Of a DNA stretch of 64,000 bases, positions 8,852 through 54,290 are shown piece after piece. The DNA lies in contig JAFQQQ010000002.1 of the NCBI GenBank assembly GCA_017410525.1, forward strand, positions 62,001 to 126,000, read 5' to 3'. Each line of letters begins with the position of its first letter. The stretch's first letter is position 1. The translations under genes were made by a program, and so were the position numbers. The DNA is from Bacilli bacterium (GTDB lineage: Bacteria; Bacillota_I; Bacilli_A; RF39; UBA660). The notes under the pieces were generated by a model. That model did not search any database. It was not told where the DNA came from and worked only from the letters and a program-made list of their open reading frames with translations.

Positions 8852-8868
8852 TTCGACATTATTCGACA
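8852..8868 (-). promoter_or_regulatory. Two tandem Spo0A-type boxes upstream of the histidine kinase
   Basis: TTCGACA occurs at 8852-8858 and again at 8862-8868. Read on the minus strand each is TGTCGAA, the established Spo0A box, and the two starts are exactly 10 bp apart, one helical turn, as in dimer sites. They lie 32 bp before the kinase start and after the upstream terminator. A weak -10 (TATATT, 8880-8885) follows. Spo0A itself is outside the window, so binding is inferred. Confidence 0.55.
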
Positions 8869-8900
8869 AAACTATTTGATATATTTATTTTGGTGATAAA

Positions 8901-10130
8901 ATGAATCTATTTCAAATAATATTTTTAGATGTAGTATTACTTATATTTCCAATTCTTGTATATTTACTTTATTTAACAACTAATAAAAATATAACTAAAA
9001 AGTCTAAAAAAGTATATTTAAGTTTAGTACTAATAACATCTTTCTTTATGCTCTATAATTATGGAGTAGATACACCTAGATTATTACCAGTACTTATATT
9101 AAACTCAATAGTAATACTTTCTTATTTAGAGGATAGATATATAATAGCTAATATACTTTCAATATTAATAATATTTATATATAGCAATTTCTTTAATTAT
9201 ACATTTATTCTTTTTGCAATATATATTTTAATATCTCTTTTATATTTAATAAGAAAGAGAATAAATCTTAAGAATATTTTATTTGTTAATTTAAGTATAA
9301 TTATAAGTAGTATAGTTTATTTTATTTGGGTATATAAATATAATAATGAGTTTTTTAATTTAGATGTAATAATTTATATAATTATTTGTTATTTTTTTAT
9401 AGTTAATTTAATAAGTTTTATGTACGAAACAGGTAAAAAAATACTTGAAACACACCTAACTTATAAAGAATTACAACAAGAAAAACAAATAAGATTAACT
9501 TTATTCAAAATAACACATGAAATAAAAAATCCGATAGCTGTTTGTAAAGGCTATTTAGATATGATAAATGTAAAAGATACAGATCAAGTAGAAAGATATG
9601 TTCCAATAATAAAATCCGAAATAGAAAGATTATTAACAATATTACAAGATTTTTTATTAATAAATAGAGATAATTTAGATTTAGACATAATGGATTTTAA
9701 TATGCTTATAGAAGATACAATACATAAATTAAATCCTTTATTAAAGGATAATAATATTAACTTAAATTTAAATATTTTAGATGATGAAATATTTATAAAT
9801 GGAGATTATAATAGACTTAGTCAAGTATTAATAAACATAATAAAAAATAGTATAGAAGCAATACCAGAAAATCATAAAGGTAAAATAAAGATAAAGACAA
9901 AAATAAAAGATAAAAAATATTATTTAGTAGTAGAAGATAATGGAATAGGAATGGATAAGGAAGTATTAACTAATATTAAAAAACCTTTCTATACAACTAA
10001 GAAAAGAGGTTCTGGTTTAGGCGTTTCTTTAATATATGAAATAGTAGAAGCACACAATGGTAAAATAGAATATTCATCTGAATATGGTAAAGGAACTAAA
10101 GTAACAATACAACTTCCAATTTATGAATAG
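8901..10130 (+). CDS. Orphan multi-pass sensor histidine kinase
   Basis: This 409-residue kinase has a hydrophobic N-terminus with about six or seven transmembrane segments (residues 1-180) and no obvious extracellular domain. A short coiled linker leads to a HisKA domain with the phospho-acceptor in THEIKNPIAVCKGYL (about residue 212). The catalytic domain has the N box LINIIKNSIEAI, the G1 box DNGIGMD, and the G2 box GSGLGVSL. No response regulator is adjacent. The layout is like KinB-type sporulation kinases, and the tandem Spo0A-like boxes upstream fit feedback control. The signal is unknown. The start has GGTGAT 4 bases upstream. Confidence 0.9.
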   Translation: MNLFQIIFLDVVLLIFPILVYLLYLTTNKNITKKSKKVYLSLVLITSFFMLYNYGVDTPRLLPVLILNSIVILSYLEDRYIIANILSILIIFIYSNFFNYTFILFAIYILISLLYLIRKRINLKNILFVNLSIIISSIVYFIWVYKYNNEFFNLDVIIYIIICYFFIVNLISFMYETGKKILETHLTYKELQQEKQIRLTLFKITHEIKNPIAVCKGYLDMINVKDTDQVERYVPIIKSEIERLLTILQDFLLINRDNLDLDIMDFNMLIEDTIHKLNPLLKDNNINLNLNILDDEIFINGDYNRLSQVLINIIKNSIEAIPENHKGKIKIKTKIKDKKYYLVVEDNGIGMDKEVLTNIKKPFYTTKKRGSGLGVSLIYEIVEAHNGKIEYSSEYGKGTKVTIQLPIYE

Positions 10131-31320: not shown

Positions 31321-33546
31321 ATGAATGAGTGGGTTGGATTTAAGGGAACTAAATGGCAAAAAGAAATAGATGTCAGTGACTTTATTGAAAGAAACTATAA
31401 AGAATATTTAGAAGACGATAGTTTTTTAACTGGTGTAAGTAAAAGAACTTCTAAAATATGGGGTAAGTGTAAAAAATTACTTGCTAAAGAAGCTATAAGT
31501 GGGGTTCTTGATGTAGAAACTTTTATAATGAGTGGTATTGATAATTTTGAAGTTGGATATATCGATAGAAATAATGAAGTAATAGTAGGACTTCAAACTG
31601 ATGCACCTTTAAAAAGAATAGTTAATCCATATGGTGGATATAGAATGGTCAAAAAATCATTAGATGCTTATGGATTCCATTTAGAAAGAGAATTAGAGGA
31701 AAGTTTTAAAGAGTTTAGAAAAACTCATAATGATGGAGTATTTGATGCTTATACAGAAGAAATAAAAAAAGCAAGACATAATCATTTAATTACTGGTCTT
31801 CCTGATGCGTATGGTAGGGGAAGAATTATTGGAGATTATCGTAGACTTGCTTTATATGGGGCAGATTTCTTAATAGAAAAGAAAAAAGAGGATTTAAGTA
31901 AATTAACTGATATAAATGATGTGTCAACTATTCAACTTAGAGAAGATGTTAAAGAACAAATAAGGGCTTTAGAATTAATAAAGAAAATGGTTTCAAGATA
32001 TGGTTTTGATGTATCTAGGCCAGCTGGCAATGCAAAAGAAGCAATACAATGGACTTATTTCGCATATTTAGCAGCTATTAAACAAAATAATGGCGCAGCT
32101 ACTAGTATTGGTAGAAATACATCATTCTTTGATATATATATTGAAAGAGATATAGAAAACGGTATTCTTACAGAGCAAGAAGCACAAGAACTTATAGACC
32201 AATTTATAATTAAATTAAGACTTGTTAGACATTTGAGAACTCCCGAATATAACGAATTATTTGCTGGAGATCCAACTTGGGTAACAGAATCTATAGGTGG
32301 TATGCTAGATAATGAAAAATCGTTAGTGACTAAAACTGCTTATCGTATGTTAAATTCACTTAATAATATAGGTGAGTCAGCTGAACCTAATTTAACAATT
32401 TTATGGAGCAAAAAATTACCAGATAATTTCAAAAAATTTGCTAGTAAAATGTCAATTAAGACACATACTTTACAATTTGAAAATGATGATTTAATGAAGC
32501 CTATATATGGTAATGATTATGCAATTAGTTGTTGTGTGTCTGCTTTAAAACTTGGATATCAAACACAATTCTTTGGTGCTCGCATTAACTTTGTTAAAGT
32601 ATTATTATATGCTTTAAATGGTGGTAGAGATGAAATTACTGGGGATTTAGTTATTGAGGGTATAGATGAGTTAGAAGGAGAATACTTAGATGTAGATGAA
32701 GTATTGAAACAATTTGATAAGGTATTAAAGAAAACTGTAAAAATATATATTGATGCTTTAAACATAATTCACTATATGCATGATAAATATGCTTATGAAA
32801 GTAGTCAAATGGCGTTCTTAAATACTAATTTAGAATATTTAATGGCATTTGGACTTGCTGGTATTTCAATAGTTGCTGATTCTTTTTCAGCTATGCAATT
32901 TGGACATGTAAGAGTTAAAAGAGATGAAAGAGGGTTAACTAATTCATTCGATGTTGAATTTGATTATCCAAGATATGGAAATAATGATGATAGAGTAGAT
33001 ACAGTTGCTAAAAACTTGGTAAAAAGAGTTTATAGAGAATTGAAAAAATATCCTTTATATAAGAATGCAGTTCCAACTCTTTCACTTTTAACAATCACTT
33101 CTAATGTAGTTTACGGTAAACATACAGGTGCTACACCAGATGGAAGAAAATTTGGAGCACCATTCTCGCCAGGGGCGAATCCTTCGCAAGGAGCAGATAA
33201 AAATGGTGCTTTAGCCTCGCTTTCTTCAGTTGCTAAAATACCTTATAAAGATTGTTGCCAAGATGGAGTATCAAATACATTCTCAATCGTGCCTAATGCT
33301 TTAGGCAATGATGAAAACGAAAGAATTAATAATTTAGCTAAAATACTTGATGGGTATTTTGGAAGTGGTGCTCATCATCTAAATGTAAATGTACTTGATA
33401 AAGATTTACTTATAGATGCAATGCATAATCCAACTAAGTATCCAAATCTCACAATAAGAGTATCTGGTTATGCAGTTAATTTTAACAAACTAACTCAAGA
33501 ACAAAAAGAAGAAGTTATAAGTAGGACGTTCCATGAACAAATTTAA
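31321..33546 (+). CDS. pflB: Formate C-acetyltransferase (pyruvate formate-lyase)
   Basis: This 741-residue glycyl-radical enzyme converts pyruvate and CoA to acetyl-CoA and formate under anaerobic conditions. The paired active-site cysteines are in [14 protein letters not shown], and the radical Gly in the C-terminal [14 protein letters not shown] landmarks such as [22 protein letters not shown] fit this enzyme rather than a diol dehydratase relative. AGGAGG lies just before the ATG, overlapping the end of ligA. The activating enzyme gene overlaps its 3' end. Together with ackA this gives acetate-forming fermentation. Confidence 0.97.
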
Positions 33547-34252
33547 AAGTGGATATATACATTCTATAGAAACAATGGGTCTTGTAGATGGTCCAGGTAT
33601 TAGAGTAGTAGTATTTATGCAAGGTTGCCCACTTAGATGTTTATTTTGTCACAATCCAGAAACATGGAATAAAAAATCAAATAATAAAATGACATCTAAA
33701 GAAATAGTAGATGAAGTTAGAAAGTATAGACCATACATAGAAAAAGAAGGCGGAGTAACATTTTCAGGTGGAGAACCATTACTTCAAACAGAATACTTAC
33801 TTGAAATGTTGAAGATGTGTAAAAATGCTGGATTTCATACTTGTATAGACACATCAGGAACGGGGTATTCAAAAGAATATTTAGATGAGGTATTAAAATA
33901 TACAGACTTAGTTATATTAGATATAAAAGCCATAGACAATGTTAGCTATAAACAAGTGACATCTAAAGAAATAGATGAGTTTAATTATTTTGTAGAAAGA
34001 TTAAATGAAAATAATAATAAAACATGGCTAAGACAAGTAATTGTGCCTAATATAAACGACAATGAAGAATATATTATAAAATTAAAAAATTATATAAAAA
34101 TATTTAAAAATATAGATAAAATAGAATTGCTTCCATATCACTCAATGGGTATACAAAAATATCAAAAACTAAATATAAAATATAGATTACTAGATACTCC
34201 AGATATGGATAAAAAAAAGTGCAAAAAATTAGAAGAATTATTGAACAAGTAA
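33533..34252 (+). CDS. pflA: Pyruvate formate-lyase activating enzyme
   Basis: This 239-residue radical SAM enzyme installs the glycyl radical on PFL. The cluster motif is [17 protein letters not shown] (CxxxCxxC, residues 30-37), followed by [10 protein letters not shown] and [10 protein letters not shown]. Its start codon lies inside the pflB 3' end (14-base overlap), so synthesis should be coupled to pflB. It is followed by a terminator. Confidence 0.96.
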
Positions 34253-38345: not shown

Positions 38346-40421
38346 ATGAAAAAATATCCAATAGTTTTACAAGATGAAATTAAAGACTGTGGAGTATCAT
38401 GTATTCAGATGATTTTAAAATATTATGGTGGATATGTGAAAAAATCTAATTTACTTGAAATGACAAAAACTAGTAAAAAGGGAACAACCGCTTTTAATAT
38501 TAAAGACACTTTAATAAATTTAGGATTTAATTGCAAAGGCATTAAATGTGATTTAAATGATATAAATAAAGATAATATAGTTTTACCTTGCATTGCTAGT
38601 GTAACTATTAACAATTCCTATAAACATTTCATAGTTATTTATGAAATTAATTTTAGGAAAAAATATTTAGTAATAGGTGATCCTGCAGACAAAGTAAAGA
38701 AAATTAAATATGAAGATTTTATAAAAATATTCAATAATATATTATTAATCTTTTACCCTATAAAAACATTAACTATAGAAAAAGAAGTATCTCAATCGAC
38801 TTTTATATTTAATTTGTTAAAACCACATAAAAAGATATTAATTAATATATTTATTTTATCGATTTTTATAACCTTATTTTCTATAATAACTTCTTTTTAC
38901 ACAGAGTATATGTTTAACTCGCTTAATTATTTTTCAAGAAAATATTTATTATTTATATTTTGTATCTTCTTTTCTATTTATATACTAAAAATATTTTCTG
39001 ATTACTTTAGAAATAAACTATTATTATTTATTAATCAAAAATTAGATCTTGTACTTACTTTGGATGTTTTTGAAAAAATTATTAAACTTCCTTATAACTA
39101 TTACCAAAATAGAACTACTGGTGATGTAATATCCCGTATTTGTGATTTAGAATCAGTAAGAGAAATGATAAGTAAAGTAGCATTATCTATCTTTGTAGAT
39201 TTACCTTTAACTTTAATATCTTTAATTGTTTTATATTTTATTAATAAAACTTTATTTACAATAAGCTTAATAATATTTGTACTATATTTTATTATAATTA
39301 TCATTTTTAGAAGAATTTTTAATGATTATATTAAAAATATACAAGTAAAAAAAGGAGAATCAACATCTTTAATGATTGAGTCTATTAGCGGATTTGAAAC
39401 AGTTAAAGGAATGCATATTGAATCCTATATTAAAGACAAGTTTGAAAAAAGATATGTTAAATACTTAAAAGATGTTTTTAAGTTTCAAAATTTATTTTTC
39501 TTACAGAATTTATTTAAAGAAATAATAGATAATATAGGTTTTATAATTATAACTTTAATAGGTTGTCTTTTAGTTATAAATGATAGTATGAATATAGGAA
39601 AGCTTCTAACATTTACATCTTTACTTGTTTATTTTCTAGAACCTATAAAAAATATTATTAATTTAGATACTATAATAAAAGAAGCCAAAAATGCATTAAA
39701 AAGAATTCTAGATATCATTACTTATAAAGAAGAAAAAAGTGGTTTAGTAGGTAATTTTTGTAATGGAGATATAGAATTCAAAAATTTAGAGTTTTCTTTT
39801 AATGATAGAGATTATGTTTTAAAAAATATAAACCTAAAAATAAAGAAAAGTTCTAAAGTTATTGTTGTAGGTAAGAGTGGTAGTGGAAAAAGTACTTTGT
39901 TTAAAATACTTATGAGATTTTATAAATCAAAAAATAATAAAGTGTTTATAAATGATATAGATTTGAATAATTATAATATAAATATATTAAATAATAATAT
40001 TTTATATGTAGGTCAAAATGAGATATTGTTTAATGATACCATTTATAACAATTTAGTATTTGGTAATAGTAAAAGTTCTAATGTTTTAGATGTTTCAAAA
40101 ATTTGTTTTGTAGATGAACTTTTAGATTCTAATTTAGGATATAATATGATGATAGAAGAAAATGGATTTAATTTATCTGGCGGTGAAAAGCAGAGAATTG
40201 TACTTGCTAGAGCGTTATTAAAAAAGTTTAATATACTTATAATTGATGAAGGATTGAGTCAAGTAGATGTAAATATGGAAAGAAAAATATTAAAAAATAT
40301 ATTTGATAAATTTAAAGATAAAACTATTATATTTATATCTCATAGATTAGATAATTTAGATTTATTTGACAATTTAATAAAAATAGAGAATGGAGTTGTA
40401 GATAATGTATGTAGGGGATAA
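38346..40421 (+). CDS. Bacteriocin-processing ABC exporter (C39 peptidase type)
   Basis: This 691-residue protein joins an N-terminal C39 cysteine peptidase (about 1-135: Cys15 in KDCGVSC, His in YKHFIVIYE, and VIGDPADKV with the Asp), a six-helix transmembrane domain (about 155-440) and a C-terminal ATPase (about 470-691: Walker A GKSGSGKST, signature LSGGEKQR, Walker B ILIIDE). These PCAT exporters cut double-glycine leaders and export the mature peptide. Two double-glycine precursors lie just downstream. GAGGAGGTGAT is an unusually complete ribosome site. It overlaps the next gene by 17 bases. Confidence 0.95.
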   Translation: MKKYPIVLQDEIKDCGVSCIQMILKYYGGYVKKSNLLEMTKTSKKGTTAFNIKDTLINLGFNCKGIKCDLNDINKDNIVLPCIASVTINNSYKHFIVIYEINFRKKYLVIGDPADKVKKIKYEDFIKIFNNILLIFYPIKTLTIEKEVSQSTFIFNLLKPHKKILINIFILSIFITLFSIITSFYTEYMFNSLNYFSRKYLLFIFCIFFSIYILKIFSDYFRNKLLLFINQKLDLVLTLDVFEKIIKLPYNYYQNRTTGDVISRICDLESVREMISKVALSIFVDLPLTLISLIVLYFINKTLFTISLIIFVLYFIIIIIFRRIFNDYIKNIQVKKGESTSLMIESISGFETVKGMHIESYIKDKFEKRYVKYLKDVFKFQNLFFLQNLFKEIIDNIGFIIITLIGCLLVINDSMNIGKLLTFTSLLVYFLEPIKNIINLDTIIKEAKNALKRILDIITYKEEKSGLVGNFCNGDIEFKNLEFSFNDRDYVLKNINLKIKKSSKVIVVGKSGSGKSTLFKILMRFYKSKNNKVFINDIDLNNYNINILNNNILYVGQNEILFNDTIYNNLVFGNSKSSNVLDVSKICFVDELLDSNLGYNMMIEENGFNLSGGEKQRIVLARALLKKFNILIIDEGLSQVDVNMERKILKNIFDKFKDKTIIFISHRLDNLDLFDNLIKIENGVVDNVCRG

Positions 40422-40839
40422 ATTAGATGTTTATAATGATTCGTCAATAATTTTAGAAAAAAAGATTCATAAAAAAATTATTTCTTGGGTTACAATTTTG
40501 GTTATATTACTTGTTTTGTTAGTTGTGTTTTCAATGGTACCTTTTAATATTTATAAACCTGTTATAGGTAAAGTAAATATCACCGACAATAAAACTTTTT
40601 TGGAATTAGATTTAAATTATAGTGGTTTTCCAGTTAATCGTTATAATAAATTATATATAAGAAATAAAGAATATAATTATAAAATTGTAAGTATAGAAGA
40701 TAATATTTTATTGCTTGATATAAATTTAGATGAAAGTCTAAAAATACAAAACAACATAGTGAATGTGAACGTTTTAAAAAATAGAACTACAATATTTAAA
40801 ATAATAAGAAATAAAATAAAGAAGGGATTTGGTGTATGA
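40405..40839 (+). CDS. Small membrane accessory protein of the bacteriocin exporter
   Basis: This 144-residue protein has one transmembrane helix (about 28-48, VTILVILLVLLVVFSMV) and an extracytoplasmic beta-rich domain. The position, right after the exporter, and the topology resemble a shortened HlyD-like adaptor that normally links a peptide exporter to the outside, but it lacks the usual long coiled coil. An immunity role is an alternative. ATG 40405 overlaps the exporter end and the first peptide gene starts inside its final bases, so the operon is tightly coupled. Confidence 0.65.
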   Translation: MYVGDKLDVYNDSSIILEKKIHKKIISWVTILVILLVLLVVFSMVPFNIYKPVIGKVNITDNKTFLELDLNYSGFPVNRYNKLYIRNKEYNYKIVSIEDNILLLDINLDESLKIQNNIVNVNVLKNRTTIFKIIRNKIKKGFGV

Positions 40840-52018: not shown

Positions 52019-52276
52019 ATGAAAAAAGATTTAGAGTTAGTTAAATTTAATCTAACTCCAAGTATGTCTTTTGAACTTATTAAATTCAATAAATTAAAAA
52101 AAGAATTAAATAAATTAAAAGAACTTTACAATCTAGATAAAAATGAAGAACTGCTATTAAAAATTAAAGACTTAGAGAATGAACTTATAAAATGTAGAAA
52201 TACGTTTATAAGAGAATTTAGACTTAATAACCAAGATGAAATAACTACATATTTACAAATAAAAGATCAATTTTGA
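52019..52276 (+). CDS. Small coiled-coil protein
   Basis: This 85-residue charged protein has a leucine-rich helical core (KLKKELNKLKELYNLDKN, then LLLKIKDLENELIK) consistent with a coiled coil, and no known domain. ATG 52019 is chosen because GGAGG at 52009-52013 lies 5 bases upstream; the in-frame TTG at 52007 overlaps it. It ends in a hairpin, just before the sigma-H-like promoter of the next operon. Confidence 0.55.
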   Translation: MKKDLELVKFNLTPSMSFELIKFNKLKKELNKLKELYNLDKNEELLLKIKDLENELIKCRNTFIREFRLNNQDEITTYLQIKDQF

Positions 52277-52322: not shown

Positions 52323-52354
52323 ATATATGTGAAGGGTAAAAGATATTCTAGTTT

Positions 52355-52361
52355 TGTCGAA
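52355..52361 (+). promoter_or_regulatory. Spo0A box TGTCGAA
   Basis: An exact TGTCGAA lies between the sigma-H-like -10 and the spoIIAA-like start. GTTTTATCGAAT (ending at 52321) and GTTTTGTCGAAT (ending at 52362) form a direct repeat 41 bp apart. In B. subtilis Spo0A boxes are upstream of spoIIA; this one is about 34 bp downstream of the predicted -10, so it may repress or serve a second promoter. Confidence 0.5.
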
Positions 52362-52412
52362 TCTGTATAAAAAGAAATAAATATGTGCTAAATTAAATAG
52401 GAAGGTGAATAT

Positions 52413-52760
52413 ATGCTTAATGTAGGGATTGAATTTAGAAAAGGAATTTTATTTGTAAGACTTAAAGGCCATTTAAATAAAGATACTATAGATAAATTAA
52501 ATAAAAGAGTTACTAAAGTTGTAAAAGAAAATGGAATAAGAAACATAGTATTTAATTTTAGTAATTTAAAATCAATAGATATAAAGGGAATAAATGCTAT
52601 ATTTTATAATTATGAACTAGTCAAAAGAAATGAAGGTAGAAGTTTAATGTGTGGTAATAACGATAATATAAGAAAAAAATTAAAAAGAAGTAGATTAATT
52701 AATTATGTATATGAAACAAGTAGTGAATTAACTGCTTTAAAACTATTAAACTTGAGGTGA
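52413..52760 (+). CDS. SpoIIAA-like STAS protein lacking the phosphorylatable serine
   Basis: This 115-residue single STAS domain has the right order of strands and helices (GILFVRLKGHLNKDT, NIVFNFSNLKSID, SLMCGNNDNIRKKLK). In SpoIIAA the phosphorylated Ser58 lies in DSSG; here positions 56-59 read DIKG, so Ser57 and Ser58 are Ile and Lys. It cannot be switched by an anti-sigma kinase in the normal way. The sigma gene starts 4 bases after its stop, and no spoIIAB gene lies between. It may have become a constitutive partner or kept a different role. AGGAAGGTGA precedes the ATG. Confidence 0.8.
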   Translation: MLNVGIEFRKGILFVRLKGHLNKDTIDKLNKRVTKVVKENGIRNIVFNFSNLKSIDIKGINAIFYNYELVKRNEGRSLMCGNNDNIRKKLKRSRLINYVYETSSELTALKLLNLR

Positions 52761-52764
52761 TAGT

Positions 52765-53421
52765 ATGGATGAAATAACTAATTTAATAATGAATAATGAA
52801 AGATTAATATATAGTATTGCTAATTACTTTAAAAACTATAATAGTAAGGAAGATTTGTATCAAGCTGGGTGTTTAGGTCTTATTACTGCCTATAAAAAAT
52901 ATAATCCTAATATGAACTCAAAATTTACAACCTATGCTTATCCTTATATATTAGGAGAAATGAGAAAACTAGTTAGGGAAGATAAAGGATTAAAAATAAG
53001 TAGGGAAATAACTAAATTAAACTTAAAAATAGAAAAAGCGTATGTACTTTTAACTCAAAAACTAATGAAAGAACCAAGCGTAGAAGAGATAGCTCGCTTT
53101 TTAGAAATACCTGAATTCTATGTAGCAGAAGCAATACTTAGTTTAAATAAAATTAAAAGTATTGATGAACCTGTAAATGACGAAGGTAGGGATTTTACTT
53201 TACAAGATGTAATTGGTAAAAGTGAAAATATAGATGAATTAATTATGTTAAAAGAACTAATTCAAGGGTTAAATAATGAAGAAAAAGCAATTATTGATAA
53301 TAGGTATATGAAAGATTATACACAAAGTGAAACATCTAAGTTAGTAGGGATGAGTCAAGTACAGGTTTCAAGAAAAGAACAAAAGGTATTACAAAAACTA
53401 AAACAAAAGATGTTAGCTTAA
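52765..53421 (+). CDS. RNA polymerase sigma factor, SigF/SigG type
   Basis: This 218-residue sigma-70 family factor has regions 2 (SKEDLYQAGCLGLITAYKKY and FTTYAYPYILGEMRK), 3 (KEPSVEEIARFLEI) and 4 (YTQSETSKLVGMSQVQVSRKEQKVLQKL). The GMSQVQVSR segment is the signature of sporulation sigma factors F and G, and of the related SigB. The STAS gene directly upstream and the sigma-H-like promoter point to SigF. The usual spoIIAB gene is missing. Its stop overlaps a terminator hairpin. SigG is not excluded. Confidence 0.85.
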   Translation: MDEITNLIMNNERLIYSIANYFKNYNSKEDLYQAGCLGLITAYKKYNPNMNSKFTTYAYPYILGEMRKLVREDKGLKISREITKLNLKIEKAYVLLTQKLMKEPSVEEIARFLEIPEFYVAEAILSLNKIKSIDEPVNDEGRDFTLQDVIGKSENIDELIMLKELIQGLNNEEKAIIDNRYMKDYTQSETSKLVGMSQVQVSRKEQKVLQKLKQKMLA

Positions 53422-53459: not shown

Positions 53460-54290
53460 ATGACGAATAATGTAATTGTGGTACAAGATATACCAATAAA
53501 TATATCAATTGAAAATGAAGAAGATTATATTTGTATAACAGATATAGCTAAAGTAAAAATAGGAAAATCAAAAATAGATGATATAATTAGGAACTGGTTA
53601 AGGAACAGAAGTACTTTAGAATTTTTAGGAACCTGGGAAAAAATATATAATTTAAATTTTAAACCCGCCGAATTCGACGGGTTTATAAGAGAATCCGGGT
53701 TACATACTTTTACGCTTAGTGTAACAGAATGGGTAGAAAAAACAAATGCAAAAGGTATTTATGTAAAGAGAGGTAAATATGGTGGTACTTATGCTCACAA
53801 AGATATTGCATTCGAGTTTGCTTCTGCTATAAGTCCTGTGTTTAAATTATATTTAATAAAAGAATTTCAAAGGTTAAAAAATTTAGAAAGTAATAATATA
53901 CAGTGGAGTGCAAAAAGATTACTGACAAAGAATAATTATTTAATACATACTGATGCGATAAAAAATTATATATTACCAAACAATGATTATTATAAAAATA
54001 AAAAATGGTTAAAATATGCAGAAGAAGCGGATATACTTAATGTAATAATATTTAATACCACTGCAAAAGAATGGAGAAAGTTAAATCCGGAATTATCTAA
54101 AACTTCAAATATAAGAGATTTTGGGACTATAAATGAATTAACAGTTTTATCGAACTTAGAAACACATAATGCTGAGTTAATAAAAGAAGGATTAACTAAA
54201 GAGGAAAGATTTGATAGATTAAGTCAGATTGCTAAATATCAGTTAAATATTTTAAATAAGGCAGAAGAAGTTAATCAATTATCAATATAA
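53460..54290 (+). CDS. KilA-N domain protein
   Basis: This 276-residue protein has a KilA-N domain (about residues 20-150: DYICITDIAKVKIGKSK, then NWLRNRSTLEFLGTWEK, FDGFIRESG and GRYGGTY-like KYGGTYAHKDIAFEFASAIS). The family binds DNA and is common in phages, mobile elements and some gut bacteria. The C-terminal half (about 155-276) is a conserved but unnamed helical region. AAGGAGAT lies 8 bases upstream. The gene includes an unusually GC-rich palindrome at 53661-53684. It probably arrived by transfer. Confidence 0.88.
   Translation: MTNNVIVVQDIPINISIENEEDYICITDIAKVKIGKSKIDDIIRNWLRNRSTLEFLGTWEKIYNLNFKPAEFDGFIRESGLHTFTLSVTEWVEKTNAKGIYVKRGKYGGTYAHKDIAFEFASAISPVFKLYLIKEFQRLKNLESNNIQWSAKRLLTKNNYLIHTDAIKNYILPNNDYYKNKKWLKYAEEADILNVIIFNTTAKEWRKLNPELSKTSNIRDFGTINELTVLSNLETHNAELIKEGLTKEERFDRLSQIAKYQLNILNKAEEVNQLSI
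53661..53684 (+). repeat. 24-base near-perfect palindrome inside the KilA-N gene
   Basis: The arms AAACCCG and CGGGTTT flank a GAATTC centre; 11 of 12 base pairs match. It is clearly more GC-rich than the surroundings. The encoded residues (KPAEFDGF) are a conserved part of this protein family, so coding constraint may explain it. Confidence 0.6.

Follow-up and report, generated by a model that had tools for sequence, protein, structure and literature searches.

A probable spoIIA remnant without SpoIIAB and SpoIIE in an order of Bacilli

Genes and upstream region of the locus

The window (the whole stretch of DNA analysed, 64 kb) contains a two-gene operon in which a SpoIIAA-like STAS gene is followed after a gap of 4 nt by a sigF-like sigma factor gene, with no spoIIAB between them (Table 1). 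The STAS protein had SpoIIAA (TIGR02886) as its nearest equivalog, at 57.8 bits and so below the curated cut-off of 114.75, and its SpoIIAA fold was supported by an AlphaFold2 model with a pLDDT of 89.8, for which the best PDB match was SpoIIAA 1thn_B (TM 0.92). The sigma factor was best matched by the SigB/F/G family (TIGR02980) at 182.5 bits, below the cut-off of 234.35, and scored 169.9 bits against SigF (TIGR02885), also below the curated cut-off of 321.45; SigG of the same genome is a separate gene at C2:122985.

Table 1 Features of the locus and of related sites in the window
Feature	Position	Strand	Evidence
Spo0A box TTTGTCGAA	52353..52361	+	exact match
Conserved promoter region TCTAGTTTTGTCGAA-n-TGTATAA-N15-GTGCTAAATT	52347..52393	+	column conservation, 109 aligned upstream regions
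SpoIIAA-like STAS gene, 115 aa, predicted non-phosphorylatable	52413..52760	+	PF01740 5.8e-15; AlphaFold2 model; dN/dS
Beta1-beta2 hairpin EFRKGILFVR, codons 7-16, newly constrained	52431..52460	+	conservation ranks
DIKG in place of DSSG, codons 56-59 (D56-I57-K58-G59)	52578..52589	+	alignment
sigF-like sporulation sigma factor gene, 218 aa	52765..53421	+	TIGR02980 9.5e-54; TIGR02885 7.4e-50
84-aa coiled-coil-like gene	52022..52276	+	
KilA-N domain protein gene	53460..54290	+	1.3e-21
Other perfect Spo0A box	8862..8870	-	
409-aa orphan membrane histidine kinase gene	8901..10130	+	NCBIfam matches, including sporulation kinase KinD

The coiled-coil-like gene upstream of the operon is kept at that place within the genus only. 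The KilA-N gene lies directly 3' of sigF and is not found there in the other loci of the genus; its place is occupied in other genera by genes directly 3' of the sigF orthologues which we take, by sequence recognition, to be spoVAC-spoVAD-spoVAE, as in canonical spoIIA loci. The distance of sigF from dnaA was about 17% of the chromosome in one near-complete relative.

Two perfect Spo0A boxes were observed in the window against 0.13 expected. The box ahead of the operon, already noticed in a sequence-only reading of this DNA, was recovered in 107 of the 115 relative loci, against 2.1 expected, where it lies near -58 relative to the start codon of STAS, and a second box 26 nt upstream of it was partly conserved. 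With a 0A box at its promoter and Spo0A encoded in the genome (268 bits, over the cut-off), the operon is a predicted member of the Spo0A regulon. Four loci without a STAS gene (L017, L020, L027 and L029) carry the same 0A promoter directly before sigF, which shows it to be the promoter of sigF, with a STAS gene beneath it that is removable. The other perfect box of the window lies about 30 bp before the gene for the 409-aa histidine kinase, which is a candidate Spo0A kinase under Spo0A control.

The sigma-H-like promoter proposed in the same reading was not supported, as the sigma-H hexamers were not conserved across the aligned upstream regions: GAAT and GAAA were split about 48:50 across loci, and the candidate -35 element, also unconserved, lies at a spacing of 16 nt, where about 12 nt would be usual. 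The element actually conserved is GTATAA-N15-GTGCTAAATT. A sigma-H promoter was therefore not adopted for the operon although SigH is present in the genome, and for that last reason some use of sigma-H at this promoter is still conceivable. Sigma-F-type autoregulation was also considered, the GTATAA element being common to the promoters of the operon and of spoIIR; the -10 regions of the two differ.

Conservation of the pair and absence of the partner switch

The STAS gene was detected by the STAS profile in 148 of 193 order genomes (69 of 83 genera), and it directly precedes sigF in every one of the 115 loci that yielded both genes, three genomes being counted twice. SpoIIAB was found in 0 of the 193 order genomes, representing 83 genera, by a profile match at 1e-20 with which the B. 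subtilis positive control was found. Since the two-gene arrangement is repeated in the 115 relative loci and SpoIIAB is missing from all 193 genomes, it is not a matter of chance. Among the 35 family genomes, none was above the cut-off of the SpoIIAB profile and none contained the SpoIIE phosphatase domain (PF07228); all 8 genomes of the same class that carry a complete sigF operon were above the SpoIIAB cut-off. The best SpoIIAB-profile match in the genome of the window was the HATPase domain of the ordinary 409-aa histidine kinase (3.0e-11), and searches there for a diverged SpoIIAB gave histidine-kinase-type HATPase domains only. The missing spoIIAB gene pointed out from the sequence was thereby confirmed for the STAS-sigF gap, for the genome and for the order, and the search for spoIIAB and spoIIE homologs suggested as its check came out in the same direction.

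The genomes are drafts derived from metagenomes, that of the window being 1.04 Mb in size and 95% complete, so that SpoIIAB and SpoIIE might seem missing merely through incompleteness. This explanation was refuted and keeps practically no weight, as SpoIIAB was recovered from none of the order genomes, 180 of which are ≥90% complete, and as STAS lies right beside sigF, leaving no space for a spoIIAB gene.

Purifying selection acts on both STAS and sigF in the genus and is the stronger on STAS, with median dN/dS of 0.10 for STAS and 0.19 for sigF (dS was near 1 and the values are approximate). At least about 20 genomes without STAS still carry a gene of sigF length, which makes STAS dispensable for sigma-F. 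No SigF/SigG-like match of any kind was obtained in 7 of 193 order genomes. A shortened STAS gene without sigF was seen in one genome (G064, locus L189), where the best SigF-profile match was weak (8.2e-32); this genome is a possible decaying end state.

Phosphosite and surfaces of the STAS protein

The loop of B. subtilis SpoIIAA is taken here to be D57-S58-S59-G60, with the first Ser, Ser58, as the phosphorylated residue. The DIKG motif was found at 56-59 exactly as it had been read, but the assignment of the lost serine had to be shifted by one residue: phospho-Ser58 of B. subtilis aligns with Ile57 and Ser59 with Lys58. The loop of the solved complex reads DSSG, and 1tid carries alanine at the first Ser. 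Over 113 distinct order STAS sequences, the phosphosite residue was I, E, N, M, L, K, S, Q, D or others, with Ser in 8 and an intact DSSG in one; the intermediate state expected among relatives, Ser kept without SpoIIAB, was thus observed. The suggestion that the losses agree with each other was likewise upheld, the phosphosite having been lost along with both SpoIIAB and SpoIIE.

Conservation ranks of the STAS positions were compared on 91 clusters. Positions 57 and 58 ranked 107 and 102 of 113, respectively. The residues of the SpoIIAB face (E20, F54, S57, S58 and R66) are invariant in 8 of 8 SpoIIAA proteins of SpoIIAB-containing Bacilli; the same positions ranked 102-110 of 113 in the order STAS and are among its most variable ones. 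The B. subtilis equivalent of R66, R67, is reported in both the SpoIIAB and the SpoIIE interfaces (PMC11418112). The hairpin residues E7, G11, F14 and R16 ranked 9, 4, 7 and 6 of 113, respectively, and are, together with E105, nearly invariant in the order STAS; no conservation of E7 and G11 was seen in the eight SpoIIAA proteins of SpoIIAB-containing Bacilli. Going by the modelled fold and the order of its strands, the tip of the hairpin is expected at the end opposite the phosphosite. Judged from the alignments, constraint is gone from the SpoIIAB-facing residues and has moved to the beta1-beta2 hairpin. Because the SpoIIAB face is variable and the new hairpin residues are nearly invariant, this STAS protein is neither decaying nor an ordinary SpoIIAA, and its partner has probably changed.

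Two other identities for the partner arrangement were weighed against these surfaces. The place of SpoIIAB may have been taken by an anti-sigma factor that is unrelated to it or has diverged strongly, or by a histidine kinase through its kinase domain. The weak HATPase similarity of the window's 409-aa kinase and the small coiled-coil gene just upstream of the operon would agree with a replacement, which is quite improbable nonetheless: that kinase shows the usual HisKA-HATPase domain layout, and similar scores are reached by many histidine kinases; the small gene does not occur beyond the genus and was rejected as the anti-sigma factor for that confinement; and STAS is under no constraint at its SpoIIAB-facing residues. 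The STAS protein might alternatively be a direct, phosphorylation-independent regulator of sigma-F, as an anti-sigma factor or a chaperone in SpoIIAB's stead. Strict adjacency with tight spacing to sigF, a constraint in the genus stronger than that on sigF, and the new conserved surface E7/G11/F14/R16/E105 point to such a role, while several lineages have dispensed with STAS but retained sigF and the promoter, and sigma-F compared with five SpoIIAB-containing relatives gave no clear domain pattern as to a loss of SpoIIAB contacts and no clear matching change; moreover, we know of no STAS protein that binds a sigma factor directly. On balance, direct regulation is possible but doubtful.

Cascade, control of sigma-F and comparison with known systems

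The genome of the window retains Spo0A, SigH, SpoIIGA, SigE, SpoIIR, SigG and a split SigK. SpoIIGA adjoins SigE, and SpoIIR was recognised by PF09551 at 129 bits, over the cut-off; a YlbJ-like match (TIGR02871) was below the cut-off and reads through stop codons. Two RpoD-like primary sigma factors of 357 and 373 aa (L094 1306-2379 and L097 2072-3193, respectively) are also encoded. The spoIIR gene is the canonical sigma-F target, and its promoter GWATAAA...CAnnATT, conserved in the family, resembles what we take to be sigma-F/sigma-G promoters; this conservation is consistent with a working relay from sigma-F through SpoIIR and SpoIIGA to sigma-E.

The split sigK lies outside the window, on contig C1 of the same genome (G000 C1:33184-40821; loci L132 and L202-L204), with its N-terminal half at 40375-40821 and its C-terminal half at 33184-33567. 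A 589-aa serine-recombinase-like gene stands at the junction, in a skin-like element of about 6.8 kb. The N-terminal half is adjoined by a small gene (C1:39477-39719) similar to the 84-aa gene upstream of the operon.

With the rest of the cascade in place, an outright loss of sporulation is unlikely in this organism, as judged from its gene content. To our knowledge, no cultured organism exists from the order, and spore formation there is a prediction. A slower course, in which the order is gradually losing sporulation and the operon is a disappearing relic, would account for genomes of about 1 Mb, the STAS genes lost or truncated in some of them (G064), the seven genomes lacking SigF/SigG-like matches and the disappearance of SpoIIE and SpoIIAB. 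It is nevertheless unlikely in view of the purifying selection on STAS and sigF, the promoter conserved across the order and the retention of the full sigma cascade with SpoIIR and Spo0A; spore formation is also predicted by Field et al. 2024 (PMC10868615) within its RF39 set.

The locus is probably a spoIIA remnant that has no SpoIIAB/SpoIIE switch, in which sigma-F is set mainly by Spo0A-driven synthesis and STAS acts independently of phosphorylation. Spo0A~P, presumably as a direct activator, would bind the conserved 0A box and drive the STAS-sigF pair; sigma-F availability would be set mainly by synthesis, without a post-translational switch, and sigma-F would then trigger spoIIR, SpoIIGA and sigma-E as usual. 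The STAS protein, as a SpoIIAA descendant that can apparently no longer be phosphorylated, most likely serves a phosphorylation-independent partner, since the SpoIIAB face is lost and the opposite hairpin is constrained; sigma-F would be the first candidate for that partner. The earlier proposal of control by transcription only is plausible, but it leaves unexplained a constraint on STAS above that on sigF. Uncompartmentalised sigma-F activation is lethal in B. subtilis (PMC11418112), and purely transcriptional control would therefore need another source of forespore specificity. A wider formulation, by which the whole order runs sigma-F without partner switching and STAS has been reassigned through its new surface to act directly on sigma-F or on another partner, is put forward tentatively and stands below an even chance.

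Activation of sigma-F in the forespore by SpoIIE, SpoIIAB and SpoIIAA is the textbook case of a division event turned into a cell-specific programme. In this order some other arrangement must stand in for the switch, and a gut-bacterial order with the cascade but without the switch raises the question of the minimal way to start the forespore programme. Relatives with Ser retained, with Ser replaced and without STAS, all behind the same conserved promoter, amount to a natural deletion series, so that the question could be put to the test by rebuilding these states in laboratory B. subtilis.

Reduced or absent spoIIAB and spoIIE, with spoIIGA present, was reported for order RF39 by Field et al. 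2024 (PMC10868615), who predicted these bacteria to form spores under a different regulation. To judge from its class (Bacilli), its gut genomes of about 1 Mb, its single very large family and its SpoIIGA, the lineage studied here is very probably RF39, and the loss of spoIIAB and spoIIE is, as far as its RF39 data extend, already published. The RF39 set of that paper is one of KEGG presence/absence only, in which no treatment of the retained STAS gene, the phosphosite, the altered conservation or the promoter was found. In a literature search, no description was found of the retained STAS, the lost phosphosite, the new constraint, the 0A promoter or the STAS deletions; the STAS rewiring, the promoter and the STAS-deletion cases appear to be new.

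The locus resembles spoIIA of B. subtilis (spoIIAA-spoIIAB-sigF) in the STAS gene immediately 5' of a gene for a SigF-type sigma factor, the SpoIIAA fold, the control by Spo0A (here predicted from the box) and the spoVA genes downstream in relatives. It differs from spoIIA with SpoIIE in having no SpoIIAB, SpoIIE or phosphoserine, in its unconstrained SpoIIAB-facing residues and new conserved hairpin, and in the lack of a conserved sigma-H promoter. With RsbV/RsbW/SigB and related partner switches it shares the pairing of a STAS protein with a group-3 sigma factor, whereas those switches depend on an anti-sigma kinase and on a Ser that can be phosphorylated, neither of which is present here.
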